Shown here: positions 48,383 to 55,060 of the stretch, one piece after another | Layout: each line of letters starts with the position of its first letter | Position numbering within the stretch: position 1 is the stretch's first letter | Origin: an uncultured Gelidibacter sp. | GTDB taxonomy: Bacteria; Bacteroidota; Bacteroidia; Flavobacteriales; Flavobacteriaceae | DNA: 64,000 nucleotides | Assembly (NCBI RefSeq): GCF_947500795.1 | Contig: NZ_CANMTE010000002.1 | Span: 496,001 to 560,000, forward strand | Direction: 5' to 3' | The notes under the pieces: generated by a model | Told to the model about the DNA's origin: nothing | The model's input: the letters and a program-made list of their open reading frames with translations, nothing else | The model's database searches: none | Translations under genes and position numbers: made by a program

Positions 48383-49600
48383 CTATGCTTTTCGATGGGG
48401 CAATAGCGGTGGCGGTTCTCCATTAAACGGATTCCATCTGCCAATGGTTCGTGCTTCCATACCTGCCGCACTAATGACGGCCCTGTCGCCATAACGTTCA
48501 CGCATTTTGTCAATGGCTTCGCTTAAGTGTAGGAATTTGGTATCGTCATCAAACAAATTGACTTGATGTCCGCCTTCTACCAAATGGCTGAATTTTACCC
48601 CAATCAACCGCACTAAGAGCCGTCGGTTATAAAGCTTTGCAAATAAATCCAACACTATGGGAATGATGTTGTGGTCCATCGCGCTATATGGAATGCGTTG
48701 TTGTTGGGTATAAGTTTGAAAATCAGAATAGCGGATTTTAAAAGTGATACACGCAGTTAATTTATTGCCACGGCGTAATTGATAGGCCAAATTCTCGGCC
48801 ATGGCAATAATAATACCTTTCAATTTGGTGACATCTGTAGTGTCTTTGTTGAAGGTGCGTTCCGTAGAAATAGATTTACGCTCATGGTATTGAATCACCG
48901 GCGAATTGTCAATACCATTGGCTTTGTTCCAAATGCTCAAGCCGTTTTTGCCGAGCACTTTGTACATGAGTTCCATAGGCATTTCCTGTACGGTCCTGAT
49001 TTGTTTGATGCCCAAATCGCAGAGTGATTTATAGGTGACTTCACCCACCATAGGGATTTTTTTAACGGATAAGGGTGCGAGAAATGGTTTTTCAGTCCCG
49101 GAAACAATTCTTATCTCATTATTGGGTTTTGCCTCGCCGGTTGCAATTTTGGAAACGGTTTTGTTGAGCGACAATCCGAAGGAAATGGGCAATCCTGTTT
49201 CGCGGATGATGCGCTGGCGTAATTCTGAGGCCAGTTTATGGCAGCCAAAAAACTTGTCCATTCCGGTCAAATCAATATAAAATTCGTCGATTGAAGATTT
49301 TTCGTATAAGGGCACAGAGTCTTTAATAACGTCAGTCACGTTTTGGGAGAATTTGGTGTACGTGCCTGCATCGCCACGAAGAATGATGGCTTCGGGACAC
49401 AATTGTTTGGCCATCCGCATGGGCATGGCAGAATGCACGCCAAATTTCCGCGCTTCATAACTGCAGGATGCCACCACACCTCTATCGCTAGTACCACCAA
49501 TAAGCACGGGTTTTCCGTTGAGGCGACTGTCGAGCAGGCGTTCACAGGACACGAAAAAAGTGTCCAAATCCATGTGTACTATAGAGCGTTGGTAGGTCAT
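48383..49600 (-). CDS. dinB: DNA polymerase IV (Y-family)
   Basis: 405 residues. The palm shows the metal ligands in VHMDLDTFFVSCE and SSIDEFYIDLTG; the second Phe of DTFF is the steric gate that excludes ribonucleotides, as in E. coli DinB. ASCSYEARKFGVHSAMPM is the finger motif. The little-finger domain ends with HQVNLFDD, a good beta-clamp-binding peptide (QxNLF), followed by a further ~55-residue extension rich in Arg and Pro. It performs translesion synthesis. It lies 94 bases downstream of a dnaE-type gene on the same strand, forming a polymerase cassette divergent from a LexA-like regulator. Confidence 0.95.
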   Translation of the reverse strand: MTYQRSIVHMDLDTFFVSCERLLDSRLNGKPVLIGGTSDRGVVASCSYEARKFGVHSAMPMRMAKQLCPEAIILRGDAGTYTKFSQNVTDVIKDSVPLYEKSSIDEFYIDLTGMDKFFGCHKLASELRQRIIRETGLPISFGLSLNKTVSKIATGEAKPNNEIRIVSGTEKPFLAPLSVKKIPMVGEVTYKSLCDLGIKQIRTVQEMPMELMYKVLGKNGLSIWNKANGIDNSPVIQYHERKSISTERTFNKDTTDVTKLKGIIIAMAENLAYQLRRGNKLTACITFKIRYSDFQTYTQQQRIPYSAMDHNIIPIVLDLFAKLYNRRLLVRLIGVKFSHLVEGGHQVNLFDDDTKFLHLSEAIDKMRERYGDRAVISAAGMEARTIGRWNPFNGEPPPLLPHRKA

Positions 49601-49694
49601 TTTTAATAAGATGAATTAAGAGTTGAGAACGTTAATTGGTTTTCAAAGCCTTAAAAAATAAAGTGATTATGGGGTTTGTGTGATTTGACTTTCG

Positions 49695-52600
49695 TTAACT
49701 AACCGTCGGAACAGGTCTGACTTCTGGTTTTGGTTTTCCTTTTGCTAACATTTGACTGTAAATATTTCTTGCTGTAGAAGCTTGAGGTGGCGGATTGGTA
49801 CTATACCTCGGGTCTTCAATCACGGCCAAGCGTTCCATATGGGTGACTTCAATAGAAACGCAATCAAATTCAATCATCACTTTGCCTGTAATGCTATAAA
49901 TGCCTTTGCCTCTAAAAGGAAATTTTGCTGCCACAGGAGGAAAGTGGACCGTGTCTATAAAATCGCCATCCCGATCTAAAAAATTTCCAAAATGCATGAT
50001 TTTACCACTAGTCGTTTTAGTGTTTTTTGTGGTGATGAGGTAACCTTCAATCGTAACGGTTTGCTCTTTCATGGTTTCCAAATGCTTCGCACGTAACGGG
50101 TTTATAGAAGGGTTTTCTAGCAGATGAAACGGATTGCAGAGCGGAAAGCCTAACAATTCAATCTCATCAAAAGCATTTTCCAATGCGGTACTTGGCAATT
50201 CTGGGGTTTTATAGTGGACGCGTTCGGTTTTAAATAAGGTGACTGCAGGTTCTTGCGCTACGTGTTTGCTGATTTTTAAATGGGCTTCCCATAGCAATTC
50301 GCGTTTATTGTTTCCCGTGAATCGGAATGCATTGATTTTTATCAAAATAGACACTTGTTCTATAGAAATGGGAACACGTTCAATAAAGTCGTCCAAACTT
50401 AAAAAAGCCCCGTTTTCATTACGTTCTTTAACGATGCGTTTGATGGTTTTTGATTCAAACGATTGTAAAAACATAAAACCGAGATAAATGGTTTTTCCAT
50501 GAATAACTGTTTGCGTAAAACTATGATTGATGCAGGGTGCTTCAATAATCCCGCCGTTCATTCGGGCTTCATGAACATAGAGTTCCGTGCTGTAAAATCC
50601 GCCAAAATTATTAATGGTAGCCACCATATATTCCAATGGGAAATAGGCTTTCATAAACAAACTTTGGTAGCTTTCTACGGCATAGGAAGCGGAATGTCCT
50701 TTTGCAAAAGCATAGCCCGCAAAACTTTCAATTTGTCGCCAAATATCTTCTACGAGTTCATCCGGTTTTCCCGAGTTTTTGCAATTGTCAAAAAACTGTT
50801 GTTTCACTTTCATAAACTCTTCACGCGATCGGAATTTACCCGACATACCGCGCCGCAGCATATCTGCCTCTCCCAATGTGAGTCCGCCAAAATAATGCGC
50901 CACTTTTATCACATCTTCCTGATATACCATCACGCCATAAGTTTCGGGCATAATATCGAGTAAAATTTTTGGTGCATCTTTACGACGCTCCGGGTCGCGG
51001 TAGCGTAGAATATATTCGCGCATCATGCCACTTTTGGCCACACCGGGGCGAATGACGGAACTTGCGGCTACCAAACCTAAATAATTATCGACGCGTAATT
51101 TCCGCATCAGCATGCGCATGGCGGGTGATTCTACGTAAAAGCAACCAATAGCTTTGGCGTTTTTAAGCAAGTATTTGATGCGGGCATCTTGTTTAAAACG
51201 TTTGATGTCGTGAATGTCAATCGGTGGTTTTTCAGGATGGTTATAGGCCACAATTTCTGTAGCTTCCTTTATTTTGCCGAGTCCACGTTGGCTTAAAATA
51301 TCAAATTTATACAACCCGATATCCTCTGCAACCACCATGTCAAATTGCGTGGTGGCGTAACCTTTGGGCGGTAAAAAAGTAGCGCCGTAATAATGGATTG
51401 GTTTTTCTGAAATCAGAATACCACCAGCATGAATGCCCAAATAATTAGGAAATCCTTGAATGTATTTGCTATATTTAATGACCAGTTGCGACAATTGATC
51501 CAGTTGTTTAAGATCGTATTTGCCTCGGGTCAGCATATCCATTTCTGATTTTGGTAAACCAAAGACTTTACCCAATTCGCGCACGGAGGCTTTAAATTTA
51601 AAGGTGTTATAAACCGCGATAAGCGCGGTATTCTTAAATCTTTTAAAAATAAAATCGGTAATATCATCGCGATCCCGCCAGGAGAAATCGAGGTCAAAAT
51701 CGGGTGGATTTTGTCTAAAAACGTTAATGAATCGCTCAAAATACAAATCGAGTTCCACAGGATCGACATCCGTAATGCGTAGCAAATAGGCCACAATGCT
51801 ATTGGCGCCACTACCGCGGCCTATATAGAAATAATTTTTACTGCGCGCGTATTTTAAAATCTTCCAATTGATCAGGAAATAAGAAACAAAGCCTTTTTGC
51901 TCAATAATAGTGAGTTCTTTTTCAATCCGCGTAAAAATCCGCTCTCCCGGTTTTTTATAGCGGTAATGCAAACCGTCATAGGTCAGTTTTCTCAGTAACC
52001 TAAAATCTAAAGCCTCATTGCGGGTGTAAGAGCGTTGGTTGTTTGGGTTTTCTTGAGAAAAGTCAAAATCCACACGGCATTTTTCGAGAATGGACGCTGT
52101 ATTTTCAAGAAGTTCAGGAAACTCATTATAGGTGTCGCACAATTCCTGATACGGCAACATGGTGTCTGTTTCTTGGGCTTGTTCGCTTTTTGGAAGCTTG
52201 CTCAACAAAGTGTTATTATCGATGGCACGTAATAAACGGTGGGTATTAAAATCTTTTTTATTCTGAAATGATACGGTTTGTAAAACGACCAACTTGTTCC
52301 GCAATGCATTCCATTTTGAGAATTTAAGATGATTTAAATCCTGTGGCTTGATGCCTAAAAACTCATGGTCTTTAAGCTGATAGTTTTTTTTATGGATGTA
52401 CGGATAAATCACAAAGACATCTTCTAATTCTGGAGCGATTTCAGGGATTTTTAATTCTGAATTGTGTAAAAACCCAGAGAGGTAGGTGTTGATATTTTGG
52501 AACCCTGTATTGTTTTTTGCAATCAGAATAAATTGCTGCTGAACGCCATTTCTGAAATCAATGCCCAACACGGGTTTAATCTTGTATTTTGAAGATAATC

Positions 52601-52745
52601 GCGCAAAATCCAAACAGGCCGAAGTACTATTAATGTCTGTCAACGCTAACGTCTGTAGTCCATTTTCTGAAGCAATGGCAAGCAGTTGTTCCGGCTTGAT
52701 GGTGCCGTAGCGAAGGCTGTAGTAAGTGTGACAATTGAGGTACAT
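49695..52745 (-). CDS. dnaE: Short DnaE-type DNA polymerase III alpha subunit (second, probably error-prone copy)
   Basis: 1016 residues, well below the replicative DnaE of this phylum and near the length of DnaE2 enzymes. The N-terminal PHP domain is degenerate: the usual HxH is N4-C-H6 and TDHG is TDIN, so metal-dependent exonuclease activity is not expected. The C-family palm is intact: PDFDLDF (Asp349, Asp351) and KFDIL (Asp482) supply the three catalytic aspartates, and KGHSASYAVESYQ is the thumb/finger signature. The C-terminal ~130 residues resemble an OB fold (IEGYLITTKNTKTTSGKIMH). It is followed by dinB and faces the XRE-S24 gene, which favours a role in damage-induced translesion synthesis. 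Confidence 0.9.
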   Translation of the reverse strand: MYLNCHTYYSLRYGTIKPEQLLAIASENGLQTLALTDINSTSACLDFARLSSKYKIKPVLGIDFRNGVQQQFILIAKNNTGFQNINTYLSGFLHNSELKIPEIAPELEDVFVIYPYIHKKNYQLKDHEFLGIKPQDLNHLKFSKWNALRNKLVVLQTVSFQNKKDFNTHRLLRAIDNNTLLSKLPKSEQAQETDTMLPYQELCDTYNEFPELLENTASILEKCRVDFDFSQENPNNQRSYTRNEALDFRLLRKLTYDGLHYRYKKPGERIFTRIEKELTIIEQKGFVSYFLINWKILKYARSKNYFYIGRGSGANSIVAYLLRITDVDPVELDLYFERFINVFRQNPPDFDLDFSWRDRDDITDFIFKRFKNTALIAVYNTFKFKASVRELGKVFGLPKSEMDMLTRGKYDLKQLDQLSQLVIKYSKYIQGFPNYLGIHAGGILISEKPIHYYGATFLPPKGYATTQFDMVVAEDIGLYKFDILSQRGLGKIKEATEIVAYNHPEKPPIDIHDIKRFKQDARIKYLLKNAKAIGCFYVESPAMRMLMRKLRVDNYLGLVAASSVIRPGVAKSGMMREYILRYRDPERRKDAPKILLDIMPETYGVMVYQEDVIKVAHYFGGLTLGEADMLRRGMSGKFRSREEFMKVKQQFFDNCKNSGKPDELVEDIWRQIESFAGYAFAKGHSASYAVESYQSLFMKAYFPLEYMVATINNFGGFYSTELYVHEARMNGGIIEAPCINHSFTQTVIHGKTIYLGFMFLQSFESKTIKRIVKERNENGAFLSLDDFIERVPISIEQVSILIKINAFRFTGNNKRELLWEAHLKISKHVAQEPAVTLFKTERVHYKTPELPSTALENAFDEIELLGFPLCNPFHLLENPSINPLRAKHLETMKEQTVTIEGYLITTKNTKTTSGKIMHFGNFLDRDGDFIDTVHFPPVAAKFPFRGKGIYSITGKVMIEFDCVSIEVTHMERLAVIEDPRYSTNPPPQASTARNIYSQMLAKGKPKPEVRPVPTVS

Positions 52746-52768
52746 TTTTTTTCGGTTTGCTTATTTTT

Positions 52769-52776
52769 CAAAATTA
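52769..52776 (-). promoter_or_regulatory. Candidate -7 element of the dnaE-dinB unit
   Basis: TAATTTTG on the minus strand, 23 bases before the dnaE start codon. No TTG is found at the proper distance; it lies next to the TATTTGTAG repeats. Confidence 0.35.
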
Positions 52777-52781
52777 ACTAT

Positions 52782-52897
52782 TATTTGTAGTGAGTCTTGC
52801 TTATATTTGTAGCAAGTTTTAAAATGCAGAATTAAGGTTTGAGAATCAAGTACTAAGAATCAAGATTCAGGACTTTGTCTCAATAGTGTATTTGTAG
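52782..52897. promoter_or_regulatory. Three TATTTGTAG direct repeats in the divergent promoter region
   Basis: TATTTGTAG occurs at 52782-52790, 52804-52812 and 52889-52897, between the dnaE start (52745) and the XRE-S24 start (52911). The first two are 22 bases apart and the third 85 bases on, close to whole helical turns. TATATTTG at 52802-52809, a -7-type element, overlaps the second copy. They are candidate operators of the adjacent LexA-like repressor. Confidence 0.5.
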
Positions 52898-52910
52898 TAG
52901 AAAGAAGAAA

Positions 52911-53681
52911 ATGAAAAACATTCAAGCAAACATAAAACACCTTCGCTCCTTAAAACAGTTGTCTCAAGAGCGTTTTGCCGATGAGTTGGGTTGGTCACGA
53001 TCGGTAGTGGGATCATATGAGGAAGGGCGTTCAGAGCCACCCATTGACCGATTGATTGATTTGTCAAATTACTTTAAAATTCCCATTGACATTTTGGTCA
53101 AAAATGATTTGCGAAAAGCCAAAGACACCTCGTTTATTGATATTGGAAGTAAGCGCGTGCTGTTCCCGATAACCGTTAATGAAGACAATGAAGATCTTAT
53201 TGAAATTGTGCCTGCAAAAGCCTCTGCGGGGTATTTGGCAGGTTATGATGATCCAGAATATATTGAACAGCTGCAAAAAATTAAGCTGCCTTTTCTTCCT
53301 ACAGGAACCCACCGTGCCTTTCCAATTAAAGGCGATTCCATGCTGCCCGTAAAAGACGGGTCTTTTGTGGTGGCAAAATATGTTGAGGATATTCAGGATG
53401 TAAAAAATGGACGCACCTATATTGTGTTGACTAAAGATGATGGACTGGTTTATAAGCGCGTGTATAATTTAATTGAAGAGAAACAGACCTTGATGTTAAG
53501 CAGCGATAATAAAGCCTATCAACCTTATGAAGTTCCTATTGAAAATGTGTTGGAACTGTGGGAATTTACCTGCTGTATCAACACTCAGGAATACGATGAA
53601 AAGGAATTGAAAATGAGCAGTATTATGGCAATGTTCCAAGAATTAAAAGTAGAGCTGGAAGCGGTTCAAAAAATGGCCTAA
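52911..53681 (+). CDS. LexA-like XRE-S24 self-cleaving transcriptional repressor
   Basis: 256 residues. Residues 5-65 are an XRE helix-turn-helix (LSQERFADELGWSRSVVGSYEEG). The C-terminal S24 peptidase domain has a putative cleavage site Ala106-Gly107 (KASAGYLAG), nucleophile Ser143 (GDSM) and Lys182 (VYKR); site, Ser and Lys spacing agree with LexA/UmuD/CI proteins. It should repress target genes until RecA filaments trigger self-cleavage. It ends with a short helical tail. It is divergent from dnaE-dinB and overlaps the exonuclease fusion gene by one base (TAATG). Confidence 0.93.
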   Translation: MKNIQANIKHLRSLKQLSQERFADELGWSRSVVGSYEEGRSEPPIDRLIDLSNYFKIPIDILVKNDLRKAKDTSFIDIGSKRVLFPITVNEDNEDLIEIVPAKASAGYLAGYDDPEYIEQLQKIKLPFLPTGTHRAFPIKGDSMLPVKDGSFVVAKYVEDIQDVKNGRTYIVLTKDDGLVYKRVYNLIEEKQTLMLSSDNKAYQPYEVPIENVLELWEFTCCINTQEYDEKELKMSSIMAMFQELKVELEAVQKMA

Positions 53682-55060
53682 TGGGAAAAACCAAAGCAAC
53701 ATATACCATTATTGACGTCGAAACCACCGGACGTGGTAACAAAATCACTGAAATTTCCATTTTTAAATATGATGGTGACAAGGTGGTTGATGAATTCACG
53801 TCGCTGGTCAATCCGGAGTCTTTAATTCCTGACTATATTACCGCATTAACTGGTATTGATAATGCGATGGTAGCGGATGCGCCAACCTTTGCAGAAATTT
53901 CAGAAGCGATTCTTGCCATTACTGAAGACACTATTTTTGTGGCCCATAATGTCAATTTTGATTATAACGTGATTCGTAATGAATTCAAAGCTATTGGCGG
54001 CGATTTCAGACGACGTAAACTGTGTACGGTGCGGTTGTCGCGTACGCTGTTCCCTGGGTTCCGATCGTATAGTTTGGGAAAATTGTGTGCTACTATGGAG
54101 ATTGATTTGGTAGACAGGCACCGCGCACGCGGTGATGCAGAAGCCACCGTGACCTTGTTTCAAAAACTATTGGCCCATAAACATTCGGAAACCGTTTTTG
54201 CTGATTTTTTGAAAAAAGGTTCGAAAGAAGCCACCTTGCCGTCGCACTTGCCAAGCGCCATTTTTGAAAGCATTCCTAATGGTCCGGGTATTTATTATTT
54301 CAAAAACAAGAAAGGAAAAATCATTTATGTTGGGAAGGCTATCAATTTAAAAAAGCGTGTTTTAGGGCATTTCTATGATAAGAAAGAAAAGGAACTGAAC
54401 CTTTGTAGAGAAACGGCCCATATTGATTATGAACTGTCGGGCAGTGATTTGGTGGCGCGATTGATGGAAGATGCGGCCATTAAGCATCATTTTCCGCTCT
54501 ATAATCAAGCTGCCAAACGTGTGCCAAAGCCCTATGCGGTTTTTAGTTATGAAGACCGTCGCGGTATCCAACATCTGGCATTTAATACGCTTAAAGCGAC
54601 ACCATTTCCGCTACAAATCTTTCATAGTATTCGCGATTGCCGATTGTATTTAGAGCAGGTATGCGAGAAATTTGAATTGTGCCCTAAATACTGCCATTTG
54701 CAAGAGAGTGTTTGGACCTGTTCGCATTACAAATTGACCACTTGTAAAGGTGTTTGTAAGGATGAAGAATCGGTGGTCGATTATAACGAACGGGCGAATT
54801 TGGCCATTGAATATATGGCAACGTCCAATCAGAACATCGTCTTAAAGGAAAAGGGACGGCATCAGGAAGAGGAAGCTTTTATATTGATAAAAAACGGACT
54901 CTATCTCGGCTATGGATTTGTAGAAAAATCGGAGCAGATTGTACATATGGACGATTTGGAAGCCTTCCTTATTCCGCAAAAGGAAACGATGGAAGTTCAG
55001 GGTATTTTGAGAAAACTAGTGTTGCAGTCTTCAACTATTGAAACTCTAGAATTGCACTAA
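53681..55060 (+). CDS. DnaQ-like exonuclease fused to UvrC-type GIY-YIG nuclease
   Basis: 459 residues. Residues 5-170 are a DEDDh exonuclease: DVETTG (Asp12, Glu14), HNVNFDYNVI, and HRARGDAEAT. Residues 200-290 are a GIY-YIG domain: GIYYF (Gly203), IYVGKA, KKRVLGH with the catalytic Arg, and LMEDAAIKHHFPLYN with the metal-binding Glu. Then follows a cysteine-rich part (residues ~325-365) with C-x7-C-x3-C, the same spacing as the cysteine cluster of UvrC. Similar DnaQ-UvrC fusions occur in actinobacteria. The UvrB-binding and endonuclease-V-like C-terminal parts of UvrC are absent, so it resembles Cho. It is translationally coupled to the LexA-like gene. Confidence 0.92.
   Translation: MGKTKATYTIIDVETTGRGNKITEISIFKYDGDKVVDEFTSLVNPESLIPDYITALTGIDNAMVADAPTFAEISEAILAITEDTIFVAHNVNFDYNVIRNEFKAIGGDFRRRKLCTVRLSRTLFPGFRSYSLGKLCATMEIDLVDRHRARGDAEATVTLFQKLLAHKHSETVFADFLKKGSKEATLPSHLPSAIFESIPNGPGIYYFKNKKGKIIYVGKAINLKKRVLGHFYDKKEKELNLCRETAHIDYELSGSDLVARLMEDAAIKHHFPLYNQAAKRVPKPYAVFSYEDRRGIQHLAFNTLKATPFPLQIFHSIRDCRLYLEQVCEKFELCPKYCHLQESVWTCSHYKLTTCKGVCKDEESVVDYNERANLAIEYMATSNQNIVLKEKGRHQEEEAFILIKNGLYLGYGFVEKSEQIVHMDDLEAFLIPQKETMEVQGILRKLVLQSSTIETLELH

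Follow-up and report, generated by a model that had tools for sequence, protein, structure and literature searches.

A putative paired CTAC-N5-GTAG operator between a LexA-type S24 repressor and a DnaE2-PolY2 operon: a probable SOS switch in Gelidibacter and other Flavobacteriaceae

The window analysed here is a 64,000-nucleotide stretch of the genome of a marine bacterium, an uncultured Gelidibacter sp. (contig NZ_CANMTE010000002.1, positions 496,001 to 560,000), in which genes for a repressor with helix-turn-helix (HTH) and S24 peptidase domains and for a nuclease diverge from genes for a second DnaE and a Y-family polymerase. Two conserved sites, missed when the locus was originally predicted to be a mutagenesis and excision-repair module, lie between the divergent promoters. 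Quite probably, the locus is a core SOS switch in which the S24 repressor, from a lineage with its own putative operator, jointly represses itself, the nuclease and dnaE2-polY2. A wider reading, to which we lean only slightly, is that a third Bacteroidetes LexA lineage with its own operator (CTAC-N5-GTAG, paired two turns apart) replaces the GGA-type regulator in over a quarter of the sampled Flavobacteriaceae genera and heads a stripped-down, mutagenesis-centred regulon without recA, the co-transcribed incision-resection nuclease and the two-polymerase mutasome being partly interchangeable partners. The genes and sites concerned are:

48383-49600, minus strand: Y-family polymerase gene, 405 amino acids (aa), Pfam IMS/IMS_C, PolY2-like
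49695-52745, minus strand: DnaE gene, 1016 aa, Pfam DNA_pol3_alpha with PHP, a second DnaE of DnaE2 type
52769-52776, minus strand: predicted -7 box of the dnaE promoter, TAATTTTG, beside site 1 (consensus from PMC6847099)
52778-52790, unstranded: putative operator site 1, CTATTATTTGTAG, consensus CTAC-N5-GTAG
52797-52815, unstranded: putative operator site 2, TTGCTTATATTTGTAGCAA
52802-52809, plus strand: predicted -7 box of the repressor promoter, TATATTTG, within site 2 (consensus from PMC6847099)
52911-53681, plus strand: HTH_3 and Peptidase_S24 repressor gene, 256 aa, non-canonical LexA-type
53681-55060, plus strand: RNase_T and GIY-YIG nuclease gene, 459 aa, Cho+Exo-like

All four open reading frames (ORFs) have the positions, strands and lengths of the original prediction, and Pfam matches confirmed their domains. 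Equally as described, the divergent intergenic region measures 165 bases (52746-52910) and the repressor and nuclease frames overlap at TAATG. Catalytic residues are present and conserved in all four proteins.

The putative paired operator

The promoters of 59 repressor genes, one per genus, were compared using site matrices built on the first 30, the other 29 being independent. Both sites are present in 42 of the 59, and all pairs are 21 bp apart. Outside the matrix-building set, 16 of the 29 promoters carry both sites, 7 carry site 2 only and 6 carry neither. A matrix-free count finds CTAC-N5-GTAG in 19 of the 59 promoters, where 0.05 would be expected.

Before the repressor gene, GGA-N5-TCC occurs in 0 of the 59 promoters of this clade and CTAA-N5-TTAG in none of the clade rows. 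By contrast, 13 of the 20 remotest homologs retrieved show at least two GGA sites, and another 5 show CTAA sites. An additional TATTTGTAG string (GTGTATTTGTAGTAG) at 52886-52900 of the window, directly before the repressor start codon, is possibly a half-site.

The repressor and its lineage

HTH_3 and Peptidase_S24 both score above their Pfam cut-offs in the repressor, the HTH being CI-like. The predicted cleavage site is Ala106-Gly107 and the predicted catalytic dyad Ser143/Lys182. Ala106, Gly107, Ser143 and Lys182 are kept in 84, 85, 85 and 85 of 90 aligned homologs and are intact in 59 of 59 clade rows; the deviating rows are five with CTAA operators and two others that differ at Ala106 only. 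This bears out the claim of a self-cleaving type of repressor facing a dnaE-dinB pair, as does the conserved synteny given below. The five (L193, L195, L196, L197 and L204) have CTAA-N5-TTAG operators, lack the cleavage Gly and have Glu and Arg at the positions of the Ser-Lys dyad; going by sequence, they look non-cleavable.

G. sediminis DSM 28135 has an identical repressor; in the window's own genome it is the only HTH-S24 repressor found. The one other S24 match there belongs to a Schlafen-type helicase and not to a repressor; this protein joins a Schlafen group 3 helicase domain to an S24 peptidase-like domain at its C terminus (L213 247-1923; G000:C1, around 336550; 559 codons, counted from the first ATG of the retrieved piece). 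The winged-helix LexA domain PF01726 is not among the repressor's Pfam matches at E 0.001, and a search of solved structures gave no match at 0.001. Genome G113 has a second place where dnaE lies opposite a short open frame of 84 codons that holds the HTH part of the repressor only (G113:C1:1905800-1906009).

A midpoint-rooted tree of 89 regulators, with a bootstrap that had not settled and a long-branch warning, separates the CTAA set (100/100), the GGA set (100/99) and the clade of the window repressor (95/92). The window clade comprises 61 rows, of which 52 have the new sites and 0 a published one. Its HTH region is nearer to the CTAA set than to the GGA set, and a one-letter change of half-site between the CTAA set and the window clade is therefore plausible.

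Presence was called in 199 Flavobacteriaceae genomes, one per genus, at 63% identity or above for the window regulator and at E 1e-35 or better for the GGA type. The window-type repressor occurs in 57 of the 199 and GGA-type LexA in 71. Only 2 genomes contain both, against 20.3 expected (Fisher p 8e-11, not corrected for relatedness), so that 55 of the 57 genomes with the window-type regulator are without the GGA-type one.

Synteny of polymerases and nuclease

Conserved synteny, the lack of which had been set beforehand as a refuting test, is present. In the best 80 of 589 confirmed stretches, a sample tilted to close relatives, polymerases lie opposite the repressor in 71 (59 with dnaE first, 8 with dinB first, 3 with dnaE only and 1 with dinB only), both sites are found in 65, and the nuclease directly follows the repressor in 17. 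The 59 one-per-genus loci (one of which, L162, has less than 1 kb of upstream sequence) have intact polymerases in 45 cases, fragments in 2 and none in 12; polymerases or nuclease stand beside the repressor in 57.

The nuclease follows the repressor in 24 of the 59 loci, namely in 12 of the 45 with intact polymerases vs 12 of the 14 without (p 1.3e-4, not corrected for relatedness), and 33 loci have polymerases and no nuclease. It is thus a genuine, recurrent but optional partner, more often an alternative to the polymerases than their companion. Of the four-gene module originally proposed, the pairing of repressor and polymerases stands; the alternation speaks against an obligate unit that includes the nuclease and weakens the idea of one machine in which excision would be coupled with translesion filling. 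In Caulobacter, DnaE2 fills gaps made by excision repair (PMC8102061).

Two cassette forms have the repressor side in common (L152-L180; L279-L291), one with dnaE first (DnaE identity of at least 69% in the listed loci) and one with dinB first (DnaE 52-58%, DinB 61-67%). In L172 and L176, polymerase fragments face an intact repressor and nuclease, as in a decaying cassette. In G. salicanalis IC162 (L216 / G013:C18), the repressor and nuclease stay at the locus, the polymerases are gone, and a 54%-identical dnaE lies elsewhere.

Toxin-antitoxin-like genes are inserted in some Gelidibacter copies of the locus. Two Gelidibacter species have a small gene pair between dnaE and dinB (L217 1850-2781; L218 1777-3051) that reads by eye as a ribbon-helix-helix antitoxin and a PIN toxin, and L219 and L220 show a gap of similar size there. 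In G. salicanalis PAMC21136 (L215 4626-6001), a small gene pair, one member RelE/ParE-like by eye, lies between repressor and dnaE.

The polymerases and the nuclease

The catalytic aspartates of DnaE are kept in 69 of 69 orthologs and the active-site residues of the Y-family polymerase in 67 of 67. Two further features lie near the C terminus of the latter:

48551-48565, minus strand: clamp-like motif QVNLF, residues 346-350
48473-48538, minus strand: segment like the RecA N terminus, about residues 355-376, in a C-terminal extension

The polymerase, whose QVNLF we take to be a clamp-like motif, had been described as a bona fide DinB with a clamp motif. It is, however, neither the sole nor the canonical Pol IV of this genome: a second Y-family gene (369 aa) lies at C2:406957. 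Aligned with the N terminus of the cell's own RecA, the tail scores 39, a value attained by 1 of 5000 shuffled tails; the tail of the other DinB scores 16. The reported absence of ImuB holds up, the genome having only two Y-family genes, both above the family cut-off. For ImuA, a PF00154 search of the genome finds one gene only, RecA, no ImuA-specific model having been run.

The nuclease combines an exonuclease domain, a GIY-YIG domain and four Cys, of which one is altered in 1 of 30 orthologs; its DEDDh and GIY-YIG residues are kept in 30 of 30. Its scores stay below the cut-offs that NCBIfam sets for the named models. In a comparison asking for a Cho-type C-terminal domain as opposed to a UvrB-binding one, the Cho model NF007833 covers residues 185-411 at 86 bits, below its cut-off of 367. 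A distant paralog (36-42% identity; partial in G113) occurs in all 30 genomes searched and a close copy in 12 of the 30.

Sites away from the locus

Genomes G157 and G084 are the only two whose repressor gene (L008 and L171) has neither polymerases nor nuclease alongside, among the 59 loci, and in both of them the unlinked dnaE keeps both sites. A second recurrent target may be a PA0069-family radical-SAM gene, which we take to be SplB/COG1533 (SplB-like below). It is present in 22 of 30 genomes and preceded by a perfect dyad in 7 of the 22, the window's own genome among them, and by a copy of site 2 in one more; three control dyads gave 1, 0 and 0 of 22. No sites were found before recA.

In the window's own genome, the perfect dyad occurs in 24 places vs 61 for the reversed control; 20 lie within ORFs, two near contig ends, one 234 bp before an open frame and one before the SplB-like gene. 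The last also lies 138 bp before a divergent peptidase-like gene.

Across the 57 genomes, the site-2 pattern TTGCTTANNTTTGTAG occurs in 58 places vs 3 for its reversed control, and 14 of these are not at the repressor gene: one SplB-like gene (G119), one unlinked dnaE (G084) and 12 others. Of the 12, four precede a gene pair containing RuvC (in four genomes, G013 and the window's own included), two precede M16 peptidase genes and two an acyltransferase gene, each in two genomes, and four are others, one of each kind having been checked for domains and the remainder assigned by likeness. Because the pattern contains the -7 box, these 12 were not counted as regulon members. In four genomes, a site-2-like string stands 44-112 bp before a beta-barrel gene that is followed by ruvC (G000:C7:102498-102513, which is L315 1999-2014; L314 2031-2046; L317; L319); ruvC is a candidate regulon member.

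Proposed mechanism and alternatives

In the proposed switch, a dimeric S24 repressor would bind at the -7 boxes of both divergent promoters, where its two sites are spaced by two turns of the helix, and would thereby shut its own operon, with the downstream nuclease, and dnaE2-polY2 together. Upon damage, RecA filaments would trigger self-cleavage of the repressor at Ala106-Gly107, and both operons would open. We infer this binding, cleavage and damage induction from the conserved residues and sites. The active Y-family polymerase with its RecA-like tail may assemble with DnaE2 into a mutasome free of ImuA and ImuB, to which the nuclease would add incision and resection. The regulon would be small, comprising the repressor itself, the polymerases, the nuclease and the SplB-like gene, and the lineage would stand in for GGA-N5-TCC LexA in 57 of 199 Flavobacteriaceae genomes. 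As judged from sequence, the regulator is best read as a third operator class of Bacteroidetes LexA with a small, translesion-centred regulon.

The conserved block might instead consist only of two back-to-back housekeeping promoters, the S24 protein acting elsewhere or not controlling dnaE. In 51 of 52 promoters, site 2 indeed encloses a TAnnTTTG box, in 40 of 52 a dnaE -7 box adjoins site 1, and site-2 matches also precede genes without a repair role. We nevertheless regard this as improbable, since the dyad of site 1 is separate from the boxes (19 of 59 perfect vs 0.05 expected) and its pairing is fixed at 21 bp, and since the SplB-like gene is again preceded by dyads and unlinked dnaE by double sites. 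That the S24 repressor belongs to a prophage or mobile element and is found beside the polymerases by chance is far less likely still: at least 63% identity across 57 of 199 genomes, polymerases or nuclease alongside in 57 of 59 loci, and viral matches never above 34% identity all argue against it, although the CI-type HTH_3, five weak viral relatives and the toxin-antitoxin-like insertions in some Gelidibacter copies would fit. Unlikely too, if less so than either of these, is a real unit of repressor and nuclease for damage-induced excision, with the polymerases as a separate guest on the common operator. Such a unit would account for the nuclease being commoner where intact polymerases are missing, for the two loci with polymerase fragments and an intact nuclease, and for the two gene orders and two sequence types of the polymerases. 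It accords poorly with the 33 of 59 loci that have polymerases and no nuclease, and with the unlinked dnaE under a double site in two genomes.

Several results weigh against the joint switch itself. Since a -7 box lies inside site 2, promoter function may explain part of the conservation of that site. In the matrix scan, 7 of the 59 promoters have neither site and 10 have site 2 only. Away from the locus, sites are clear at 1 of 6 unlinked close nuclease genes (G153), no sites precede the 54%-identical dnaE of G013 (G013:C8:546973-549924), and 14 of 22 SplB-like promoters are without either kind of site, one of them having GGA-N5-TCC. A loose pattern, CTWNNATNTGTAG, whose matches were weighed by position and conservation only, is not enriched in the window's own genome (15 places vs 18 in the control).

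If the joint switch is correct, the readable operator makes the SOS regulons of genera with the window-type regulator predictable. The two regulators, which almost never share a genome, would clearly exemplify the published model of LexA replacement, where a new LexA takes over from an old one with a change of operator. A single 165-bp fragment would suffice to test whether the repressor binds, does so cooperatively and represses both divergent translesion operons at once.

Comparison with known systems

The kind of system is largely known; what is new is the regulator lineage and its operator. In Bacteroidetes, non-canonical LexA (S24) repressors have been described as controlling dinB/dnaE and a GIY-YIG exonuclease, with SplB also in the regulon and two operators reported; for these related regulators, binding in electrophoretic mobility shift assays and induction by mitomycin C have been published (PMC8565304). 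The same study assigned the Flavobacteriaceae SOS regulon to the GGA-N5-TCC regulator in 2021 and noted further homologs in the family. The window repressor shares with them the CI-like HTH with S24, the cleavage site, the Ser-Lys dyad, a putative operator at its own promoter and at translesion genes, and SplB-like and GIY-YIG exonuclease genes as predicted targets. It differs in its operator, CTAC-N5-GTAG in a 21-bp pair rather than GGA-N5-TCC or CTAA-N5-TTAG, in forming a separate clade, and in almost never sharing a genome with the GGA type. The nearest published site is the diverged TTAC-AAATT-GTAA (TTAC-N5-GTAA) of Elizabethkingia, where the regulator likewise lies opposite an error-prone polymerase (PMC8565304). 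CTAC or GTAG at the start of a word is absent from the main text of that study, whose supplements and figures show diverged palindromes and may list the motif, and nothing closer appeared among the listed later papers on such motifs. Its supplements aside, the texts consulted describe neither the operator and its pairing nor its recurrence off the locus nor the near-exclusion of the GGA-type regulator.

An active PolY2 and DnaE2 pair without ImuA/ImuB was described in Bacteroidetes in 2019, PolY2 having a RecA-like tail (PMC6511836), and short DnaE2 cores have been noted in the phylum (PMC3919608). The window pair resembles the former in its active Y-family polymerase with a RecA-like tail adjoining DnaE2, with no ImuA and no ImuB C-terminal domain in the published description; it differs in having dnaE first, with dinB-first copies in relatives, and is likened to PolY2 by its features, not by the published member list.

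With exonuclease and GIY-YIG fusions classed as Cho+Exo, in which the exonuclease has been suggested to resect from the incision (PMC1564403), the window nuclease shares an exonuclease domain N-terminal to GIY-YIG and the four-Cys region, whereas its gene overlaps the frame of a LexA-type repressor and it scores below the NCBIfam cut-offs. The lexA-imuA-imuB-dnaE2 cassette likewise links a second DnaE and a Y-family partner to a repressor. In the window, however, that partner keeps its active site, unlike the catalytically dead ImuB, ImuA is not found by PF00154, and the repressor is not a winged-helix LexA.

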